A stretch of 64,000 nt of DNA from Verrucomicrobiota bacterium (GTDB lineage Bacteria > Verrucomicrobiota > Verrucomicrobiia > Limisphaerales > JACPZS01), in the NCBI GenBank assembly GCA_016195385.1, contig JACPZS010000232.1:1-64000 (forward strand), written 5' to 3'. A program made the translations under genes and the position numbers. Shown piece by piece: positions 15,701 to 64,000 of the stretch; position 1 is the first letter of the stretch; each line of letters starts with the position of its first letter. The notes under the pieces were generated by a model. It was not told where the DNA came from and searched no databases. It was given only the letters and a program-made list of their open reading frames with translations.

Positions 15701-16051
15701 TCACTCCAATTCATGCACGTCGTGCAACACACCGCGCGGAACGCAGACGACCAGCACTTTCAGCGCGCCCCAAGCTTTGTGTTTCACTCCGCGCGGCACA
15801 TAGATCACTTGGCCGGGCCGCACTTCGATTTCATCATCGGCCAGCCGCATCCAGCCGTGGCCGTCGATGACGTAATAAATTTCATCGGTGCGCTCATGGA
15901 AGTGCAGTTTGGCATCGGTGATTTCCAAGTGATGAACTTCTGCCGCCGCGCCATCCTTTTCCTCGATGAGCGGTCGAATCTGACCGCACGTTTCCGTCCA
16001 CGGTTTCACATCGGCGGGATCACGGTGCAGAAAAGTCGAGCTAGAATTCAT
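15701..16051 (-). CDS. cupin-domain protein
   Basis: 116 residues, a single small cupin barrel. Motif 1 is seen as LHFHERTDEIYYVIDGHG (metal-binding His-x-His...Glu) and motif 2 around VRPGQVIYVPRGVKHKAWG with its His. The fold resembles mannose-6-phosphate isomerase-like cupins used as sugar-binding proteins or small metal enzymes. No operon partner on the same strand is close: 70 bases separate it from the glycosidase-like gene upstream. The 195 bases between the frameshifted gene and this one hold nothing recognisable. Substrate unknown. Confidence 0.82.
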   Translation of the reverse strand: MNSSSTFLHRDPADVKPWTETCGQIRPLIEEKDGAAAEVHHLEITDAKLHFHERTDEIYYVIDGHGWMRLADDEIEVRPGQVIYVPRGVKHKAWGALKVLVVCVPRGVLHDVHELE

Positions 16052-16121
16052 GGCGAACTTTAAGCACGCTCCCTTGACGTAGGCGATAGGAAATTGGCGG
16101 CAACCAAGCGCGAGCGGATTG

Positions 16122-17708
16122 TCATCGAATTGAGGTTGATACGATAAGCTTCAGCGCGATGTCTTCGGTGAAATCCGGCGTCTCGGTCAGCCAACCGCCG
16201 CCGGGATGCGTGAAGGGTTCCAGCGTCCGAACTGAACCGTCGCGCGGCGTGACCCATTCGGCCTGCCAACGGCCCGGCGGCAAATCCATCGCGAACTTTG
16301 TTCGGCGCGGTTGTTCCGAACCACGAAAATAAACCGCGTACACTTTGCCCGGTTGTTCGAGTACGTAAAAAGATTCGCTCGGCGAATGCGGCCACGGACG
16401 CAGCCGATGCTGATTCGGTCGCATGTTGATGAAGTCGAGGCTCTCCATGAATTTCTTCAACACGCCGAGTTGCGCGCGCACGTCGCGGCAATCGTACCGT
16501 CCATCCGCCTGCATCACCTTGCCGCTGCCCGTCGGGTCGTCGGTCGCGAACGAAGGATCGAGATTGTCGTAGCCCGCGCCGCCACTGAGCATGAACGCCC
16601 ACGCCTCGCGCCGCCGGTCGAGCGCCTTGTGGCCCGCGTTGCCCGCGGTCTCGTCAAACACGATTGGCTTGTTGAAATGCCAGTTCAACGGCACGGCAGC
16701 AGGTGGCGAGCAATAATGGAAGTTGAACACCGAAATCGCCGGATGCGGTTTCTCGACCGCGATGTAACCGTTCGCAAAATTCACCGCGATGAGATGCTTC
16801 TTCGGCAGCTTGCGCTCGGTGGCAACGAACGTGTCGATGAGGTGGTTCTGCCACGCGGTCGTCTCGGCTGGACTCGCGCCGGAGAAATACGGCTCGTCGC
16901 ACATCTCGTAATACACGTTGTCGAACTCGTTCAACTCCGTGAGCGTCTTGCGCAGCAGCGCGTCCTGTCGCGCCACGATGCCGGCGTCGGTGAGCGTGTT
17001 GTAGCGATGCCAGGGAATGTTGCCGACGCCGTTTATGTTGTTGGCCGCATTGAACGGATGCAGCACCCAACTGCCTTTTGTCGGTCCCTCGTCGTAAAGC
17101 ACGTAGAACGCGTTGAACTCGACGACAATTCCGCGTTCGCCGGCGGCGCGAACAAAACTCTTGAGGCGCGCGAAATAATTTTCATCCCACTTGTCCAAAT
17201 CAAATTTGTTGCCACCGAAATAATAGCCGAGCTGATCACTGCGTTTCCATGGGGCGAGGTAACGTCCGAGACGCGGCGCGAGCGGATTTTGATCGCCGCC
17301 ACGCCAGAGCGTCGTATTCGTGGATTCGAGATAACTTCCGTTCACCGTGCGCGTCAGGTTCAAGCCAGCGGCCTTGAGCGTGTCGAGATAGGTGACGAAG
17401 TCGAAGTCCGGATTCAGTACCGCACCGTAATGCTCGGTCGAGGTGATGAGCACCGTCGGTTTCTCGTGGAAGAGAAAGTAGTGCTGGTTTTCGGGATGAA
17501 CACGAATTGGCTCGGCATGGCTCATCAAGGTCGCCAGCGAGAAAAGTGCGAAGCTCAATCCAGCGATGAATCGCTGCGCTATTCTCGGGTGCCTCGGCGG
17601 GACGGACTCCAACGCCAGCGCCTCATTGCGCTGACTCAACGCGGAATAGCCCACCATGTCCGTGAACATGATGGCGGCGAGCTTGCGCTGTTCCGTGCTG
17701 TCGCTCAT
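16122..17708 (-). CDS. glycoside-hydrolase-like secreted protein with a class III cyclase fragment at its N-terminus
   Basis: 528 residues read as one frame. Residues 1-34 (RKLAAIMFTDMVGYSALSQ) are the beginning of a class III adenylate/guanylate cyclase domain, with the first metal-binding Asp in FTDMVGYS; the cyclase stops there. From residue 35 the sequence becomes a signal-peptide-like segment (RFIAGLSFALFSLATLMSHA) followed by a TIM-barrel-type hydrolase domain (HYGAVLNPDFDFVTYLDTL, YYEMCDEPYFSG, PIVFDETAGN) and a C-terminal beta domain. The Glu residues in EMCDEP and FDET fit acid/base and nucleophile positions of clan GH-A enzymes. The native hydrolase may start at an internal non-ATG codon. 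I think this is a chimeric 5' end from a deletion or insertion. Confidence 0.7.
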   Translation of the reverse strand: MSDSTEQRKLAAIMFTDMVGYSALSQRNEALALESVPPRHPRIAQRFIAGLSFALFSLATLMSHAEPIRVHPENQHYFLFHEKPTVLITSTEHYGAVLNPDFDFVTYLDTLKAAGLNLTRTVNGSYLESTNTTLWRGGDQNPLAPRLGRYLAPWKRSDQLGYYFGGNKFDLDKWDENYFARLKSFVRAAGERGIVVEFNAFYVLYDEGPTKGSWVLHPFNAANNINGVGNIPWHRYNTLTDAGIVARQDALLRKTLTELNEFDNVYYEMCDEPYFSGASPAETTAWQNHLIDTFVATERKLPKKHLIAVNFANGYIAVEKPHPAISVFNFHYCSPPAAVPLNWHFNKPIVFDETAGNAGHKALDRRREAWAFMLSGGAGYDNLDPSFATDDPTGSGKVMQADGRYDCRDVRAQLGVLKKFMESLDFINMRPNQHRLRPWPHSPSESFYVLEQPGKVYAVYFRGSEQPRRTKFAMDLPPGRWQAEWVTPRDGSVRTLEPFTHPGGGWLTETPDFTEDIALKLIVSTSIR

Positions 17709-54449: not shown

Positions 54450-54490
54450 GTTGAACCACGGATGGACACAGATCCACACCGATTGCTGCC
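54450..54490. repeat. dispersed repeat GTTGAACCACGGATGGACAC
   Basis: Begins GTTGAACCACGGATGGACAC followed by AGATCCACACCG. Related copies are at 17795 and at 57521-57644. A reverse-oriented partial copy, CGTGTTTATCCGTGG, lies at about 54568-54583. It sits in the 689-base non-coding stretch 54310-54998, whose other recognisable content is the duplicated gene end at 54653. Confidence 0.6.
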
Positions 54491-54652
54491 AAGTTGAAAG
54501 GCAGCGGGCAGAGCTTTCAATTCCACCGTGTGGGGAAAAGTCGCCCCGCTCCGGCTTTCGCTTCATTCGTGTTTATCCGTGGACTTCCGTAGTTGTCCAC
54601 TTCCTGCCTGCGGTCAATCTCAAGTTCCCCTTCAGTTTTCGGGAAGAAAACG

Positions 54653-54803
54653 AAAACGGCGTGCAGCCAACGCAGTCCAAGCCTGCCGGCCGCACGCCGC
54701 GCCAAAAAACGATCTGCTTATGCCGCCTGCAGTTGAATCACATCACTCGCCGGGGCGTTGCCGACGCCGTTGGTGGCCACGATTTGCAACTGCACCGTCG
54801 CGC
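54653..54803 (-). pseudogene. displaced copy of the 3' end of the fibronectin III gene (56493)
   Basis: 151 bases that match 56427-56577 closely (I count roughly ten differences). They encode on the minus strand TVQLQIVATNGVGNAPASDV ending IQLQAA and a stop, plus about 75 bases downstream including the terminator-like hairpin. Sequence further right has no similarity to the rest of the gene, so the copy is truncated. Confidence 0.85.
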
Positions 54804-54998
54804 ACTCGTCTAAACGAACTCGCCATCGTCCGATTGAATGAATCCCTCCGGAAATCGTGGTTGACAGCCGCCCACATGCGCAGTATTCGCGGCGAAGGAT
54901 GCAGACTGAAAGCTATTCGTTTCGCCGGCATGAGGTTAAGCTTCTTTCCGTTTCGGCCAGTTGCCTGAAAATGTTTCACCGGCCCAGCCCCCATTAAA

Positions 54999-56408
54999 AT
55001 GAAAACCAACATCTGTCTTTGCTTCGGTTTCCTCGTGCTTGCCTCGACGGCTTTCGCCGCACCCCCTTTCTATCCGGTGGCCACGACGAATACGCTTGTT
55101 CCCGGTGGCTTTGCCAATTTCACGCGATTCTGGACCGCGGGTATCAACAACTCCACAGTGGCTTTTGTCGCCGATGGCCTGGGGCCACGGACGGTGTTTG
55201 TCCAAGAGCCAGGCCAGCAGCTCACCAACCCCGTCGTTGAGACCGTGATAGAGTTTGGTTTGTACAATGGCAATCTCGGCAACTTGCTCTACACCGTTCA
55301 CAATCCCAATAATGAAGACAACGACGTCATTTTCGACCAGACCGGAATTGGAACGACGGTAGCGATCGTGGCCCGGACCAATGCCGTGCCCTTCGGTTCG
55401 GGAACCTTCGACCTCAAGGTGGGGCCAGCCGCGGAGGATGCCGGCGTGGTTGCGTTTGCTGGCTTGGGGTCGAATGACGCAGGTGTCTATCTCGCAAATT
55501 TGGCTGGCAACCGCGTTACAGTGATTGCGACTCGAAACACGGGACTGCCCAGTGCCAATTCGGGCTGCGGAACCAACCTGTACGAGCCCACGCACATCGC
55601 TTACGCAGGCGGGGTATTGGCTTTTGTGGCCCGGCTGGGTGGGCCTTTGTGCAACAACATCATCGGCCTCTACTCCACTACCGGCAGCGGCTTCACCAAC
55701 GTGGCGGATATCAACACTCTGGCGCCCCCCTTCAGCACACGCATTACTTCATTGGGCCCCATCCAGATAGCCGGCAATCAAGTGGTGTTCAAAGCCCGGA
55801 CGGGCGGGACGCCTGCGCCGGGCGGCATCTACATAAAGCCGCTTGATGGCAGCGGTTCGCCGGTCGCGCTCATCACGAGTGAAGCTTTCTTTCCGGGCAC
55901 CACCAACAAGCTTGGTTCCGAGTTCGGGAACTTCACTTACGAAAACGGCGTTCTGGCATTTGAGATCACCGGCGGGAGCTACACGAACACCGGAATATAC
56001 GTCCTGACAAATGGAGTCATCACGCGCGTCATCGGCAACGGGGATTTGCTGGATGGCAAAACAGTTTCCGCCCTTTTGCTGGGCCAGCAATCGTTGAGCC
56101 GGGGTATCCTGGTATTCACCGTTTATTTTACGGATGATTCCACGGCGGTTTACACTGCCTCGGGCGCTCCTTTTTTAGGCGCGGGCGGCCTGCTCCAGCC
56201 CGGCTCCATGGTTTATTCGGCGGCGACTGGATTTTCGTTCACCTTTGAGGGGCAGCCCTACCGGCACTATCGCATCCAGTACACCCCGACTCTTAGTCCA
56301 CCCAATTGGATAGACCTGACCAATTTCTTTTACCTCCCTCCCGTCACGATAGCCGACCCCGGCGCGGTAAACGGCCAATCCCGCTGGTATCAGGCGGTCA
56401 GTCCGTGA
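54999..56408 (+). CDS. secreted protein with repeated beta structure (DUF7453-like)
   Basis: 469 residues. Signal peptide (CLCFGFLVLASTAFAA), then repeated blade-like units with a recurring G-x-V-A-F pattern: STVAFVADGLGPRTVFV, GVVAFAGLGSNDAGVYL, GVLAFVARLGGPLCNN, NQVVFKARTGGTPAPGG, GVLAFEITGGSYTNTG and GILVFTVYFTDDSTAV. This suggests a beta-propeller. The end (YRIQYTPTLSPPNWIDLTNF ... RWYQAVSP) is the C-terminal module common to other secreted proteins here. It may be exported for surface use. It lies between two direct copies of a neighbouring gene's 3' end. Confidence 0.78.
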   Translation: MKTNICLCFGFLVLASTAFAAPPFYPVATTNTLVPGGFANFTRFWTAGINNSTVAFVADGLGPRTVFVQEPGQQLTNPVVETVIEFGLYNGNLGNLLYTVHNPNNEDNDVIFDQTGIGTTVAIVARTNAVPFGSGTFDLKVGPAAEDAGVVAFAGLGSNDAGVYLANLAGNRVTVIATRNTGLPSANSGCGTNLYEPTHIAYAGGVLAFVARLGGPLCNNIIGLYSTTGSGFTNVADINTLAPPFSTRITSLGPIQIAGNQVVFKARTGGTPAPGGIYIKPLDGSGSPVALITSEAFFPGTTNKLGSEFGNFTYENGVLAFEITGGSYTNTGIYVLTNGVITRVIGNGDLLDGKTVSALLLGQQSLSRGILVFTVYFTDDSTAVYTASGAPFLGAGGLLQPGSMVYSAATGFSFTFEGQPYRHYRIQYTPTLSPPNWIDLTNFFYLPPVTIADPGAVNGQSRWYQAVSP

Positions 56409-56426
56409 AATTGCCCAGGTCGAAAT

Positions 56427-56475
56427 AAAAACGGCGTGCGGCCAACGCAGTCCAAGCCTGCCGGCCGCACGCCAC
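56427..56475 (-). terminator. rho-independent terminator of the fibronectin III gene
   Basis: Reading the minus strand after the stop at 56493, an 11-base perfect stem GGCGTGCGGCC/GGCCGCACGCC with a loop of about 19 bases is followed by GTTTTTATTT. It is part of the 151-base block duplicated at 54653, so the copy carries a slightly mismatched version. Confidence 0.75.
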
Positions 56476-56492
56476 GACAAAAAACGATCTGG

Positions 56493-57398
56493 TTATGCCG
56501 CCTGCAATTGAATCACATCACTCGCGGGGGCGTCGCCGACGCCGTTGGTGGCCACGATTTGCAATTGCACCGTCGCGCCGCTGGGCACACCGGTGATTTG
56601 CGCGTCGCTGTCTTCCACCGTGGCGACCACGACGGGCGCGGGATCCACGCCCACGATCTGCTTGAGCACTTTGTAACGCGACGCGCGTGTGGCATCCGGC
56701 CAGTCCAGCACGATGATGCCACCGGGTTGCACGGTGGCGGTGACGTCCGTGACTTGCTCTGGCGCGTGCGGATCGCCCGGAATGCGGTCGATGAACTTGA
56801 GCCAGCGCGCGTCCGTCGGCGTGAGCACCGCTTCCAACTCCTTCCACAGACTGTTGAGTTGATTCTCCAGCGCCGTTTCGGCCGTGTTGCGACCGTCGCG
56901 GTTCGTGCGCTGATCGGTGCGGCAATTGCGCGTCGTCTGCATCGCGGCAGTGAGCGCGTCGAGCAAACCCTGGGTGGTGCTCGCGGTGATATTCAGCGGC
57001 GTGCTTTCGTGCGCGGCGTTCGCCGTGAAATAAGCCGTGATGCCCGTGAGCACTCGCAGGCGACGCGCGTCGGTGTTCGGCAATTCCAGCGTGGGCGAAG
57101 TGAAGCCGATTTGCGTCCAGCTTTCATTCCAAGTGCCGCCGAGGAAAGGCGTCAAATAATTACGCGCCTTCTCGATATAGTCCTGCGCGTTTGCGCGAGC
57201 GGTGCGCAGGTCGATGAACGCCTGGCGTTTGCCCGCGCGCGTCGTCTGGAAAAGCGCGCTCCCGTTTTCCGCCGTCGCCATCAAGCCGGTCAACTGCGGC
57301 ACGGTGGTGTGGGTGATGCCGAGCGCTACGCCCAGTTCCGTTAATCCGGCGAGTGAAACGCCGGCGATTCGATAGAACTCAGAATTATTATCATTCAT
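56493..57398 (-). CDS. fibronectin type III-containing protein
   Basis: 301 residues without a signal peptide. The first two thirds are helical (LFQTTRAGKRQAFIDLRTAR, AQDYIEKARNYLTPFLGG, TQGLLDALTAAMQT, NTAETALENQLNSLWKELEA). The C-terminal 85 residues form a fibronectin type III domain (PEQVTDVTATVQPGGIIVLD, WPDATRASRYKVLKQIVG, GATVQLQIVATNGVGDAPAS). Unrecognised family, known in PVC bacteria as an intracellular or surface hypothetical with no role assigned. It ends at a terminator, and a displaced copy of its 3' end lies 1.8 kb away. ATG 57398 is the first in frame and gives the full helical domain. Confidence 0.75.
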   Translation of the reverse strand: MNDNNSEFYRIAGVSLAGLTELGVALGITHTTVPQLTGLMATAENGSALFQTTRAGKRQAFIDLRTARANAQDYIEKARNYLTPFLGGTWNESWTQIGFTSPTLELPNTDARRLRVLTGITAYFTANAAHESTPLNITASTTQGLLDALTAAMQTTRNCRTDQRTNRDGRNTAETALENQLNSLWKELEAVLTPTDARWLKFIDRIPGDPHAPEQVTDVTATVQPGGIIVLDWPDATRASRYKVLKQIVGVDPAPVVVATVEDSDAQITGVPSGATVQLQIVATNGVGDAPASDVIQLQAA

Positions 57399-57786: not shown

Positions 57787-57994
57787 GACACGACGGCACG
57801 CCGTGGCGACCGATCCGGCATCAGATCGTACGTCACGGCGCACCGTAGCGACCGATCCGGCGACGAAAACGACGCTATCGCACGCCGTAGCGACCGATCC
57901 GGCGTCAGATCGTACGTCACGGCGCACCGTAGCGACCGATCTCGCGTCAGATCGTACACTACGGCGCGCCGCAGCGACCGATCTGGCATGAAAC
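57787..57994. repeat. 42-bp tandem repeat, five units
   Basis: The sequence GCGACCGATC recurs with GACCGATC at 57808, 57850, 57892, 57934 and 57976, exactly 42 bases apart each time. The unit is close to ACGGCGCACCGTAGCGACCG followed by ATCCGGCGTCAGATCGTACGTC. Because 42 is divisible by three, frames stay open on both strands; one plus-strand frame (57686-57991) would encode 14-residue repeats with VATDPASDRT. An isolated extra copy of the core is at 58156-58173. I do not think coding is established. Confidence 0.85.
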
Positions 57995-58462
57995 CCTACG
58001 ATCCAAGGCGTCGGAACGAACGAATTGGCAGCAAATCGGGGAAGCCGGCACATTGAAGCAAACACGTTCTGGCAAGGTTGAGCGTGAAATCCATGCTCAA
58101 GATGAGATCGTGCGAAGGTTTGTTCTGATTAACGCGTCGGAAAGTTCGAAATCGCGCCGTAGCGACCGATCCGATGGCGAAAAACCCGCCTTGTTTAGCA
58201 AATGGCCTGAGCGGGCCACAAAGGGCGTTTAGCTTTCGCCAAATAACGGGAAGTTGCCTGCTGATTTCACCACCACGTTATCCAACATAACGCATGGAAA
58301 AGGCACGCATCAATTCAGTTCCGGCAACGAAGGCTTTGCGTGCTTGGGTGAGCAGGCGGCGGGCGTTGGCCTTGAACCCCGTGTGTGGCCAAGGCCCGCC
58401 TCGCGGAATCTGAAAAGGAAAGAGACGTAAAGCACTAACGATCAGCCAAACCCATTTTCACC

Positions 58463-61222: not shown

Positions 61223-61359
61223 TGCAAATCGAGTTGATTATGAAAGTATAAATCCAGCGGCTGGTGTTTTGGGTGCCACAGGTTCTGTGCATTTCGGCGC
61301 CCGGTGCTTCCGTTTGGCCACTGCGGTTGAATTTATCAACCACGCGCAGTCATGATCTA

Positions 61360-61520
61360 TTTCGTGTATTTGTCGAGCGCCCGCATGGGTCTCGTCGAGG
61401 CAGTACTTGCTGTAGTAATCGGGCTTTTTCGGGTCTCTTTCCTTTTCCAAAACTTCGAGCGCGACTTCGGCGGCCTTGGCGGATTTGAAGAAGCTGCACG
61501 CGCGCACACCTCTTCGAGTC
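61360..61520 (-). pseudogene. displaced copy of the 3' end of the PVC dehydrogenase gene (62505)
   Basis: On the minus strand it encodes RACSFFKSAKAAEVALEVLE, KERDPKKPDYY and KYCLDET, matching the C-terminus of the gene at 62505, then an extra G shifts the frame before the stop region. About 148 bases are closely similar to 62508-62654. Sequence to the right has no similarity to the rest of the gene. The 61223-61359 stretch to its left holds nothing recognisable. Confidence 0.88.
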
Positions 61521-61724: not shown

Positions 61725-62135
61725 TCAGGTCTTGCTCGTCCACGGGTCCAGCACCGCCGCGCCAGTGCGCGCCATGTCTCGGCTGTTGTGGGTTACGAGT
61801 GTCAGGCGTCTGGTGAGGGCCGTCGCCGCGATGAGAGTGTCGAGAGTGGGGAGCGGGCCGGCGGTGGCTTGGAGTTCACCAAACTTCACAGCTATGGAGT
61901 AGTCCACGGGGATGATGCGGTGGTGGAAACGGTCGGGGATCAGATCGAACATCGCCTCCAGGGCGCGGCGTTTGCGTCCGTGCGGGAGTCCGGCGATGCC
62001 CTGCCATAGTTCGCCAAGAGTGATGACACTCAGGTGCAAATCCAGCCAATCCACAGTCTGGAGCCAGGCGAGCAGACCGGAGTCCGGGGCGGGCTTCTCC
62101 AATTCGGAGAGCGCGTCGGTGTCGAGCAGAAACAT
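61725..62135 (-). CDS. vapC: VapC-type PIN-domain toxin
   Basis: 136 residues. The PIN fold is recognised from MFLLDTDALSELEKPAPDSG (first Asp), SVITLGELWQGIAGLP (Glu), LDTLIAATALTRRLTLVTHN (Asp pair) and the final strand GAAVLDPW. The order resembles FitB-like VapC toxins, which are Mg-dependent RNases. Its ATG overlaps the antitoxin stop (TGATG). The longer in-frame extension upstream is antisense-like sequence of the antitoxin gene and is not used. The gene lies, with its antitoxin, between two copies of the neighbouring gene's 3' end. Confidence 0.88.
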   Translation of the reverse strand: MFLLDTDALSELEKPAPDSGLLAWLQTVDWLDLHLSVITLGELWQGIAGLPHGRKRRALEAMFDLIPDRFHHRIIPVDYSIAVKFGELQATAGPLPTLDTLIAATALTRRLTLVTHNSRDMARTGAAVLDPWTSKT

Positions 62136-62374
62136 CAGAGCTTGAGCTTGCGCGGCCGATCGCGGCGACGCTCGAGCGGAATGCCGGAGCCTTTGAGGGG
62201 GCGGAAAAATTCCAGCACGGTTTCCTTCGGGCGGGTGACGCGCTTGTATTCGTCCGCCGCCACGATGACGGCCACCGGCTCGCCATGCCGGGTGACGGTC
62301 TGTGGGCCTTGGGTCACAGCCAGTTCTACGAGGTGGCTGAACTGATTCTTCGCGTCTTGCAGCGGCCAAGTTTT
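62135..62374 (-). CDS. Phd/YefM-type antitoxin of the VapC pair
   Basis: About 79 residues from a GTG at 62374 (VKTWPLQDAKNQFSHLVELA), or 92 from an ATG at 62413. The N-terminal half W-x-L-Q-D-A-K-x-x-F and QTVTRHGEPVAVIVAADEYK are typical Phd/YefM signatures; the tail (ETVLEFFRPLKGSGIPLERR) is basic. It should repress the operon and neutralise the PIN toxin. The pairing of a Phd/YefM antitoxin with a PIN toxin is common for this FitB-like group. The GTG start is preferred because the segment before it (ISRRTLLN) is atypical. Confidence 0.85.
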   Translation of the reverse strand, partial: KTWPLQDAKNQFSHLVELAVTQGPQTVTRHGEPVAVIVAADEYKRVTRPKETVLEFFRPLKGSGIPLERRRDRPRKLKL

Positions 62375-62504
62375 CACGTTGAGGAGCGTCCGACGTGAAA
62401 TCTGGCCAGTCAAGCTTGTTTTGTATTGAGCGCGCGTTGCGGCGCGTACACTGTCACGCGGGCGGAGCCGCTCGGCTGGTTTTATCGACCGTGCGGAGGC
62501 TTGC

Positions 62505-64000
62505 TTACTTCGTATATTTGTCCAACGCCTTCATGGTCTCGTCGAGGCAGTACTTGATGTAGTAATCGGGCTTTTTCGGATCTTTTTCCTTCTCCAAAAC
62601 TTCGAGCGCGACTTCGGCGGCCTTGGCGGATTTGAAGAAGCTGCACGCGCGCACGGCTTCGAGGCGCACGCGCGGATGTTCGTCGTTGACCTGGACTTTG
62701 AGCAACGCCAACGGGTCGTTCACGCGGTCGCGCCAGTAACAAAGGACGCGCGTGGCGGCGGCGCGCGCGCGGTGGTCGGATGAGCGGAGCATCCGTTGGA
62801 GCAGCGCTTCATCGACGACGTTGTGCCATTGATGAACCCAGAGCGCTTCGAGCATGTGGTGCTCGTAATCCTTGTCTTTGGGGTCGAGTTTCGCGCTCCA
62901 TTTCTTGACGGCGGCGATGACTTTCGCGCTGTCGTGCTTGCCAAGTTCGATCTTCGCGCGCGTGCGGACGTCGTCCTCGGGTTCCTTGAGCAGATCAAGC
63001 AAAGCTACGATGGGCTGGCCGTCGATTTTCTTAGGCTTGAGCAACGGGCGGCCTTCGTAAGTGATGCGGTAGATGCGGCCGTGGCTTTTGTCGCGGTTGG
63101 GATCGCGGATGTGGTGTTGCATGTGGCCGATGAGCGGCTTGGCCCAGTCGCAGAAATAGATCGAACCATCCGGTGCAGTGGCAATGCAGATCGGCCGGAA
63201 GTTCGGGTCGTCGGAACTGACGAGATCTTCCAGCGACTCGCCTTTCAAACCGGAGCCGTCCTCGTTCATCTTCACGCGGAAGATGCCGAGAAAGCCGATG
63301 ACGTTCAGATTGAGAAAATTTCCCTGAAACTCTTCCGGGAAATGGCGGCTGGAAAGAATGCCGGTCGCGGGGCAGGGACGGGACGGACGTTTCCAAAATT
63401 CCTGCATGCCCTTGTGCTTGGCCGGATATTCGAGGTAGCCGCTGAACGCCGGGCCGAAGTAATTCGCGTTGCCGGTGGCGTCGGTGATGATGTCGTTGCC
63501 CCAGTAATCAAACACGCGCCCGTGCGGATTGGCGAAGCCGTACGGAACGTAGCGCTCGAATTTCCCCGTCACCGGTTCGTAGCGATAAATGCAGCCGTCG
63601 TCATTGCGGACGGGGCCTGCCGCGGTCTCGACTTGTGTGCGATGGAACACGCCGTCGCTGAGATACGTCGCGCCGCCGGGATCGAGCACCATCGCATTGG
63701 CAGTGTGGTGCGAATCGGCGGAGTCCATGCCCATGAGCACGCGCTCCTTCCAATCAGCCTTGCCGTCACCATTCGTGTCGCGCACGAACCACAAGTCCGG
63801 CGCCTGCATCACGAGCACGCCGTCTTTGTAGAACTGGAAGCCGGTGGGGCAATTCAAACCGTCGAGGAACACCGTCATCTTGTCGGCTTTGCCGTCATTG
63901 TTCGTGTCTTCAAAAATCAGAAGCTTGTCGAAAACTTTATCCGTCGGGGTGAGTTCCGGATAACTCGGCCACGCGGCAACCCACAACCGGCCCTTCGTGT
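62505..64000 (-). CDS. PVC-type membrane-bound dehydrogenase, 5' end beyond the window
   Basis: Partial: about 498 residues, beginning within RLWVAAWPSYPELTPTDKVF. The propeller of PVC sorbosone-dehydrogenase-like proteins is seen (LIFEDTNNDGKADKMTVFLD, DLWFVRDTNGDGKADWKER, SDSHHTANAMVLDPGGATYL-like region, GFANPHGRVFDYWGNDIITD, DPNFRPICIATAPDGSIYFC, DWAKPLIGHMQHH). The C-terminal 170 residues are HEAT-like repeats (VRTRAKIELGKHDSAKVIA, ARAAATRVLCYWR, PRVRLEAVRACSFFKSAKAA). Related proteins have c-type haem domains, not visible here; a separate protein or the missing part may carry them. A displaced copy of its 3' end is at 61360. Confidence 0.85.
   Translation of the reverse strand, partial: TKGRLWVAAWPSYPELTPTDKVFDKLLIFEDTNNDGKADKMTVFLDGLNCPTGFQFYKDGVLVMQAPDLWFVRDTNGDGKADWKERVLMGMDSADSHHTANAMVLDPGGATYLSDGVFHRTQVETAAGPVRNDDGCIYRYEPVTGKFERYVPYGFANPHGRVFDYWGNDIITDATGNANYFGPAFSGYLEYPAKHKGMQEFWKRPSRPCPATGILSSRHFPEEFQGNFLNLNVIGFLGIFRVKMNEDGSGLKGESLEDLVSSDDPNFRPICIATAPDGSIYFCDWAKPLIGHMQHHIRDPNRDKSHGRIYRITYEGRPLLKPKKIDGQPIVALLDLLKEPEDDVRTRAKIELGKHDSAKVIAAVKKWSAKLDPKDKDYEHHMLEALWVHQWHNVVDEALLQRMLRSSDHRARAAATRVLCYWRDRVNDPLALLKVQVNDEHPRVRLEAVRACSFFKSAKAAEVALEVLEKEKDPKKPDYYIKYCLDETMKALDKYTK

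Follow-up and report, generated by a model that had tools for sequence, protein, structure and literature searches.

A secreted-protein gene between two copies of its neighbour's 3′ end, and a recurrent class of gene-tail duplications that may record additive gene import in a Verrucomicrobiota lineage

How does a single gene come to lie between two direct copies of the 3′ end of the gene beside it? The question is raised by a 64,000-nucleotide stretch of a Verrucomicrobiota genome (hereafter the window), in which a first-pass annotation had noted that a 151-bp block from the tail of a fibronectin III-like (fn3-like) gene is present on both sides of a gene for a secreted protein. Local alignment confirmed the duplication, with 8 differences between the copies; a softer edge would extend them by 5 bp (54648-54803 and 56423-56578, 94% identical). 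The repeat consists of the last 86 bp of the minus-strand fn3-like gene and the 65 bp downstream of it, which include a strong terminator hairpin detected in both copies (RNA fold z-scores of -3.2 and -3.4). A genome search located the full block at these two places only, and two further matches were the tails of paralogues, with 76-77% identity. The possibility that the block is a dispersed element was therefore rejected. The features of this locus and of the related cases described below are collected in the table.

Table. Features of the two cases in the window, and cargo of the other 3′-end cases in the same genome.
Locus	Feature	Position	Strand	Evidence
fn3, window	Remnant: truncated second copy of the fn3-like gene 3′ end with terminator, lacking the gene body	54653-54803	-	94.7% identity to 56428-56578, gap-free
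fn3, window	Terminator hairpin of the remnant copy	54656-54700	-	RNA fold, -35.4 kcal/mol, z -3.17
fn3, window	Insert between the two tails, 1624 bp	54804-56427	+	Local alignment boundaries
fn3, window	Cargo gene, secreted protein of 469 aa, signal peptide by eye	54999-56408	+	Profile and relative searches
fn3, window	Intact fn3-like gene 3′ end with terminator	56428-56578	-	Alignment, RNA fold
fn3, window	Target gene, fn3-like, 301 aa, multicopy family	56493-57398	-	Family matches
PVC, window	Remnant of the PVC-type cytochrome gene 3′ end, with frameshift	61317-61507	-	Alignment
PVC, window	Phd-VapC cargo: PIN (VapC) toxin 61725-62135 and Phd/YefM antitoxin 62135-62377 (or 62413)	61725-62377	-	Pfam PF01850, PF02604
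PVC, window	Intact tail of the target gene 62505-63998 (TIGR02604)	62467-62654	-	Alignment, family match
L061	Phd-VapC at a DUF748 gene			
L066	DUF4160-DUF2442 at purM			
L153	DUF5615-DUF433			
L081	DUF6932 pair (putative toxin-antitoxin) at a PSD1 gene, nested repeats			
L169	ORF6N-like protein			By eye
L086	ECF sigma factor and acetyltransferase at a beta-lactamase-like gene			
L086	Esterase			
L125	PEP-CTERM-like protein at a DUF1501 gene			By eye (cargo)
L080	Short ORF			

The insert carries this one gene. The product matched no Pfam or NCBIfam family and has no paralogue in its own genome, and one full-length relative, 34% identical, was found among 58 genomes of the order. In composition, the cargo does not stand out from the rest of the genome (GC3 percentile 20). 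A structure prediction reached a mean pLDDT of 33.8 and was left unused. The hairpin of the right-hand copy lies directly 3′ of the stop codon of the cargo gene, and this terminator may serve both the cargo gene and the fn3-like gene.

Other repeats were seen around the locus. A tandem repeat with a 42-bp period occupies 57787-58038, upstream of the fn3-like gene, and an intergenic repeat of the CCACGGATGGACAC type, with six such sites in 1.9 Mb, is present at 54456 and 57527, flanking the unit formed by the fn3-like and secreted-protein genes. The fn3-like family has seven matches in the genome, one of which is the remnant; in another genome of the order (G005) it reaches at least 40 copies scattered across contigs.

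The window holds a second case of the same geometry, in which a VapC-Phd module lies between tails of a gene for a PVC-type heme-binding protein. The first-pass annotation had recognized this case as well, and its homology proved longer than had been claimed, at about 190 bp. The tails are 97-100% identical over most of the coding part, and identity drops gradually to about 70% in the sequence 3′ of the stop. Changes in the final codons are mostly synonymous, and the stop codon, as read from the alignment, is TAA in one tail and TAG in the other. The nearly equal repeat length of about 150 bp that had been proposed for the two cases did not hold up, and over 13 cases compiled as described below the length ranges from 69 to 188 bp.

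We scanned 1.906 Mb (32%) of the 5.9-Mb genome for isolated direct repeats of 60-450 bp that are at least 80% identical, lie 0.2-4 kb apart and are not within one gene. Thirty such pairs were found, and 11 of the 30 are at gene 3′ ends, so the two cases in the window are not the only ones. The same scan gave one pair in 373 kb of genome G049, one in 153 kb of small loci from relatives and none in 50 kb of E. coli, and no control pair was at a gene end; with controls this small, the differing rates of the genomes are no more than suggestive. Among 80 relatives (1.21 Mb) there were 14 pairs; four are at 3′ ends, and several are REP/RAYT units. The tail-duplication pattern is thus a trait of the lineage rather than of this genome alone. 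No gene-tail duplicate longer than 204 bp was found outside paralogues. REP-like and RAYT units, an Rhs-like tip (L130), pilin N-termini (L132) and intragenic repeats were set aside as lookalikes. The RAYT units of this lineage (L074:10483-11613, L199, L212 and L216) resemble the class in that a gene, here for a Y1/RAYT-like transposase, lies between imperfect direct repeats of about 100 bp, which start with GGACTGCGGTGGCAAGCG. They differ from it by having a dispersed repeat and a transposase, appear to be REP-associated units and were kept out of the class. A mostly gene-poor stretch of 4.5 kb (L088:923-5373) contains about eight copies of a repeat that measures 76-103 bp, with 80-99% identity among them.

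Likely toxin-antitoxin genes are the cargo in five of the 11 cases of this genome (Phd-VapC twice, DUF4160-DUF2442, DUF5615-DUF433 and DUF6932). At L135, a HepT-MNT pair is likewise bracketed by a repeat, but not at a gene 3′ end. No recombinase was found among the scanned cargo proteins of the 3′-end cases, and across the repeat edges of the 13 cases no column rose above chance. Insertion by a transposon or integrase is not supported, since the scanned cargo is without a recombinase, the repeats vary in length and their borders share no motif. The shared mechanism hinted at by the first-pass annotation is borne out, in that the geometry recurs genome-wide and in relatives; a fixed length and a common border motif are not.

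We explored the possibility that the repeats arose by insertion with a long target duplication, in which a staggered break or template switching copies about 70-190 bp of the gene end and one copy then decays. Restriction-modification genes of Helicobacter insert with long, variable target duplications in the account of Nobusato et al. (2000) given by PMC3031569, and the geometry described there matches the present one: a selfish two-gene unit or a single gene lies between long, variable direct repeats of resident sequence, without a transposase. As far as that account goes, the present cases differ in that the cargo is often a toxin-antitoxin module or a single gene, the repeats are mainly at gene 3′ ends and the copies, which for restriction-modification genes would be identical at birth, differ mostly at synonymous sites. 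Duplication and decay would also be consistent with the pair at L061, which is 98.6% identical, and with the several remnants that are frameshifted or carry a stop. At the fn3 locus, the tails have four coding differences, three of them synonymous. The intact copy has the state shared with the closest paralogue at all four and the state shared with a relative from another family at most of them, and the remnant carries most of the derived states. Taken alone, this locus would be fitted equally well by plain duplication with a decaying copy.

The class as a whole behaves differently from what duplication and decay would predict. The pN/pS of the coding differences between tails is 0.20 when the 11 cases of this genome are pooled, and the 13 cases together have 101 synonymous versus 65 nonsynonymous differences, a synonymous share of 61%. 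Duplication followed by equal-time neutral decay, with the intact branch constrained, was simulated in 400 runs at kappa values of 2, 4 and 6. The simulated synonymous share was 39-42%, and none of the 400 runs reached 61% at any kappa; the pooled synonymous excess rejects duplication with neutral decay. In eight of the 13 cases, homology runs out no more than 12 bp from the stop codon, as it should where coding sequence is conserved but the flanks are not. These pooled features are those expected for tails that evolved in two functional genes before they met, and they favour foreign alleles over copies of one sequence. Since four coding differences cannot decide at the fn3 locus, the reading of the repeats as imported alleles rests on the class and not on this locus.

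The tail of purM allows the two copies to be compared with other species. Insertions are present at the purM 3′ end in this genome (L066, repeat 15886-16066 and 16713-16892) and in two relatives (L203 and L215), where the cargo is a RelE-like module inside the purM tails. The intact and leftover purM tails are 81-84% identical, much like the tails of different species. The two copies are about equally distant from their respective nearest other species, with identities of 85.6 and 85.6% for L203, 87.6 and 87.4% for L215 and 65.6 and 63.6% for the case in this genome, whose purM tail is more diverged than the purM body predicts (second lowest of 81). By both the pooled simulations and the purM distances, the two tails in the class depart from what an origin as identical sequences at insertion would give. 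Furthermore, Ku (PF02735) had no match in this genome, which is 94.6% complete, and was found in 11 of 58 genomes; Ku-type end joining is therefore unlikely here, and Ku-dependent joining with fill-in was rejected. We regard a long target duplication as a doubtful explanation that nevertheless deserves serious attention. The target-duplicating insertion implied by the first-pass annotation is disfavoured for the class, since the tails differ like alleles under purifying selection and not like an original and its decaying copy.

Tails that evolved in two functional genes could also be left by a former tandem paralogue, if the target was once fully duplicated and the cargo subsequently took the place of the second copy, sparing only the tail of that copy. 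Former functional paralogues are expected to show a low pN/pS, and the fn3-like gene does belong to a multicopy family. The closest fn3-like paralogues in this genome, however, are 53-57% identical, and purM is affected too. A second purM tail was found in a few of 293 genomes, several of them within one family. The extra purM-tail matches listed beside the full purM in these genomes are short frames rather than second full-length genes, which is therefore evidence against a former tandem paralogue, and no adjacent second full-length copy is among these matches. This explanation also requires many independent full duplications, each of which lost all but 70-190 bp, and we find it improbable.

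The purM cases also bear on whether the modules are dedicated mobile cassettes, mainly of toxin-antitoxin genes, that use a gene tail as attachment site and a recombinase acting in trans. The module in L066 is unrelated to that in L203 and L215 and has the opposite orientation, and yet the inner edges of the repeats coincide to the codon, immediately following the GIGM motif. In L203 and L215, the leftover purM tail follows the RelE-like toxin gene with a (nearly) overlapping ATG (L203:9578-9706 and L215:6205-6330), and in L203 it forms an open, coupled mini-ORF of 42 aa in the purM frame. Both the edge and the mini-ORF speak for a cassette. However, L203 and L215 share their junction and group with further genomes, mainly of one family, in which purM also has a second tail; their insertions probably share ancestry, which leaves two independent purM cases. 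Together with the diverse cargo, including the secreted protein at the fn3 locus, the scanned proteins without a recombinase and the borders without a motif, this makes such a cassette very unlikely. A broader form of the idea, in which small selfish units, chiefly toxin-antitoxin genes, spread within the order as cassettes that carry a copy of a specific gene's 3′ end, prefer certain positions in that gene and restore it each time by means of an unrecognized recombinase, is speculative and would be given little credence.

The assembly itself was considered, since metagenome assembly could fuse two strains and this genome is fragmented into 263 contigs. The longest exact run between the two tails is 33 bp at the fn3 locus and 17-62 bp in the other cases, generally too short to mislead long-k assembly, and the same geometry is present in assemblies of relatives from other projects. 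An artefact of this kind is hardly credible.

We propose that an additive gene import, by homologous recombination with foreign DNA, left this structure as its scar, an explanation that we hold to be somewhat better than evenly probable. Foreign DNA from a related bacterium would bring the cargo gene beside its own allele of the fn3-like gene 3′ end, and the shared tail of about 150 bp would provide the homology for recombination, while the other end would be joined illegitimately inside the resident gene. Alternatively, the fragment may first circularize and then integrate by a single crossover at the tail, which would give the same product. Either route would leave an intact gene with one tail, the cargo and a leftover tail, in this order. 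The target gene would remain unbroken because the duplicated piece spans the gene end. For the same reason 3′ ends would dominate; an event at a 5′ end would presumably tend to part the gene from its promoter. At the fn3 locus itself, the foreign origin of one tail and the steps of recombination are what we infer from the class. ComEC and DprA families are present in the genome, but both are widespread and their presence is no proof of competence. No donor, empty site or genome of the same family was found among the genomes searched. The narrow range of repeat length, with gene-tail duplicates of at most 204 bp, is not predicted by import without an added argument about survivors: longer and more similar repeats may recombine away, and toxin-antitoxin cargo may persist as its loss by recombination between the tails is punished.

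The proposed import belongs to a class of mechanism that is already known; what is new is its genome-wide form, rich in toxin-antitoxin cargo. Homology-facilitated illegitimate recombination has been demonstrated in several bacteria (PMC3240628; Prudhomme 2002 and de Vries and Wackernagel 2002, as cited in PMC5361080), and it shares with our proposal an incoming DNA that is homologous at one end and joined illegitimately at the other, with the addition of DNA as a possible outcome. It was shown in laboratory transformation or conjugation, whereas here it is deduced from many scars in the genome of an uncultured bacterium, with the donor side of the joint unseen; the divergence of the tails is allele-like in the pooled cases and at purM, and at the fn3 locus the differences are few and a donor was not seen. 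In the effector-immunity arrays of the Vibrio cholerae type VI secretion system (T6SS), module insertion was proposed to occur by this recombination, and the old effector gene leaves behind its 3′ end, displaced downstream, much as a tail is left over in the present cases (PMC5361080). The arrays are one type of cluster in which toxin-immunity cargo enters at a toxin gene, and here the targets are unrelated housekeeping and family genes throughout the genome. Transposed genes of Arabidopsis (PMC2869330) are also single genes between direct repeats that match a genic target, for which a circle and recombination were proposed; they are eukaryotic, and many of their repeats are much shorter (thresholds of 15 and 30 bp). 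For small variable segments of E. coli, S. aureus and S. pyogenes, the flanking repeats are mostly shorter than 30 bp (PMC2884548). Searches of the open-licence literature yielded no description of toxin-antitoxin modules that lie between tails of neighbouring genes.

By what route lone toxin-antitoxin modules or single genes get into chromosomes in the absence of mobile-element machinery is an old open question. The genome studied here has a dozen scars, and in each the two tails can be compared with one another, which makes the choice between alleles and copies testable. If import is the correct explanation, the scars are traces of recombination with relatives, and the share of toxin-antitoxin genes in the cargo would be due to addiction, which counteracts excision between the repeats. 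The same geometry was also observed at a gene start: at L233:11610-12502, a 70-bp duplicate of the following gene's 5′ end brackets a pair judged by eye to be VapB-like and PIN-like.
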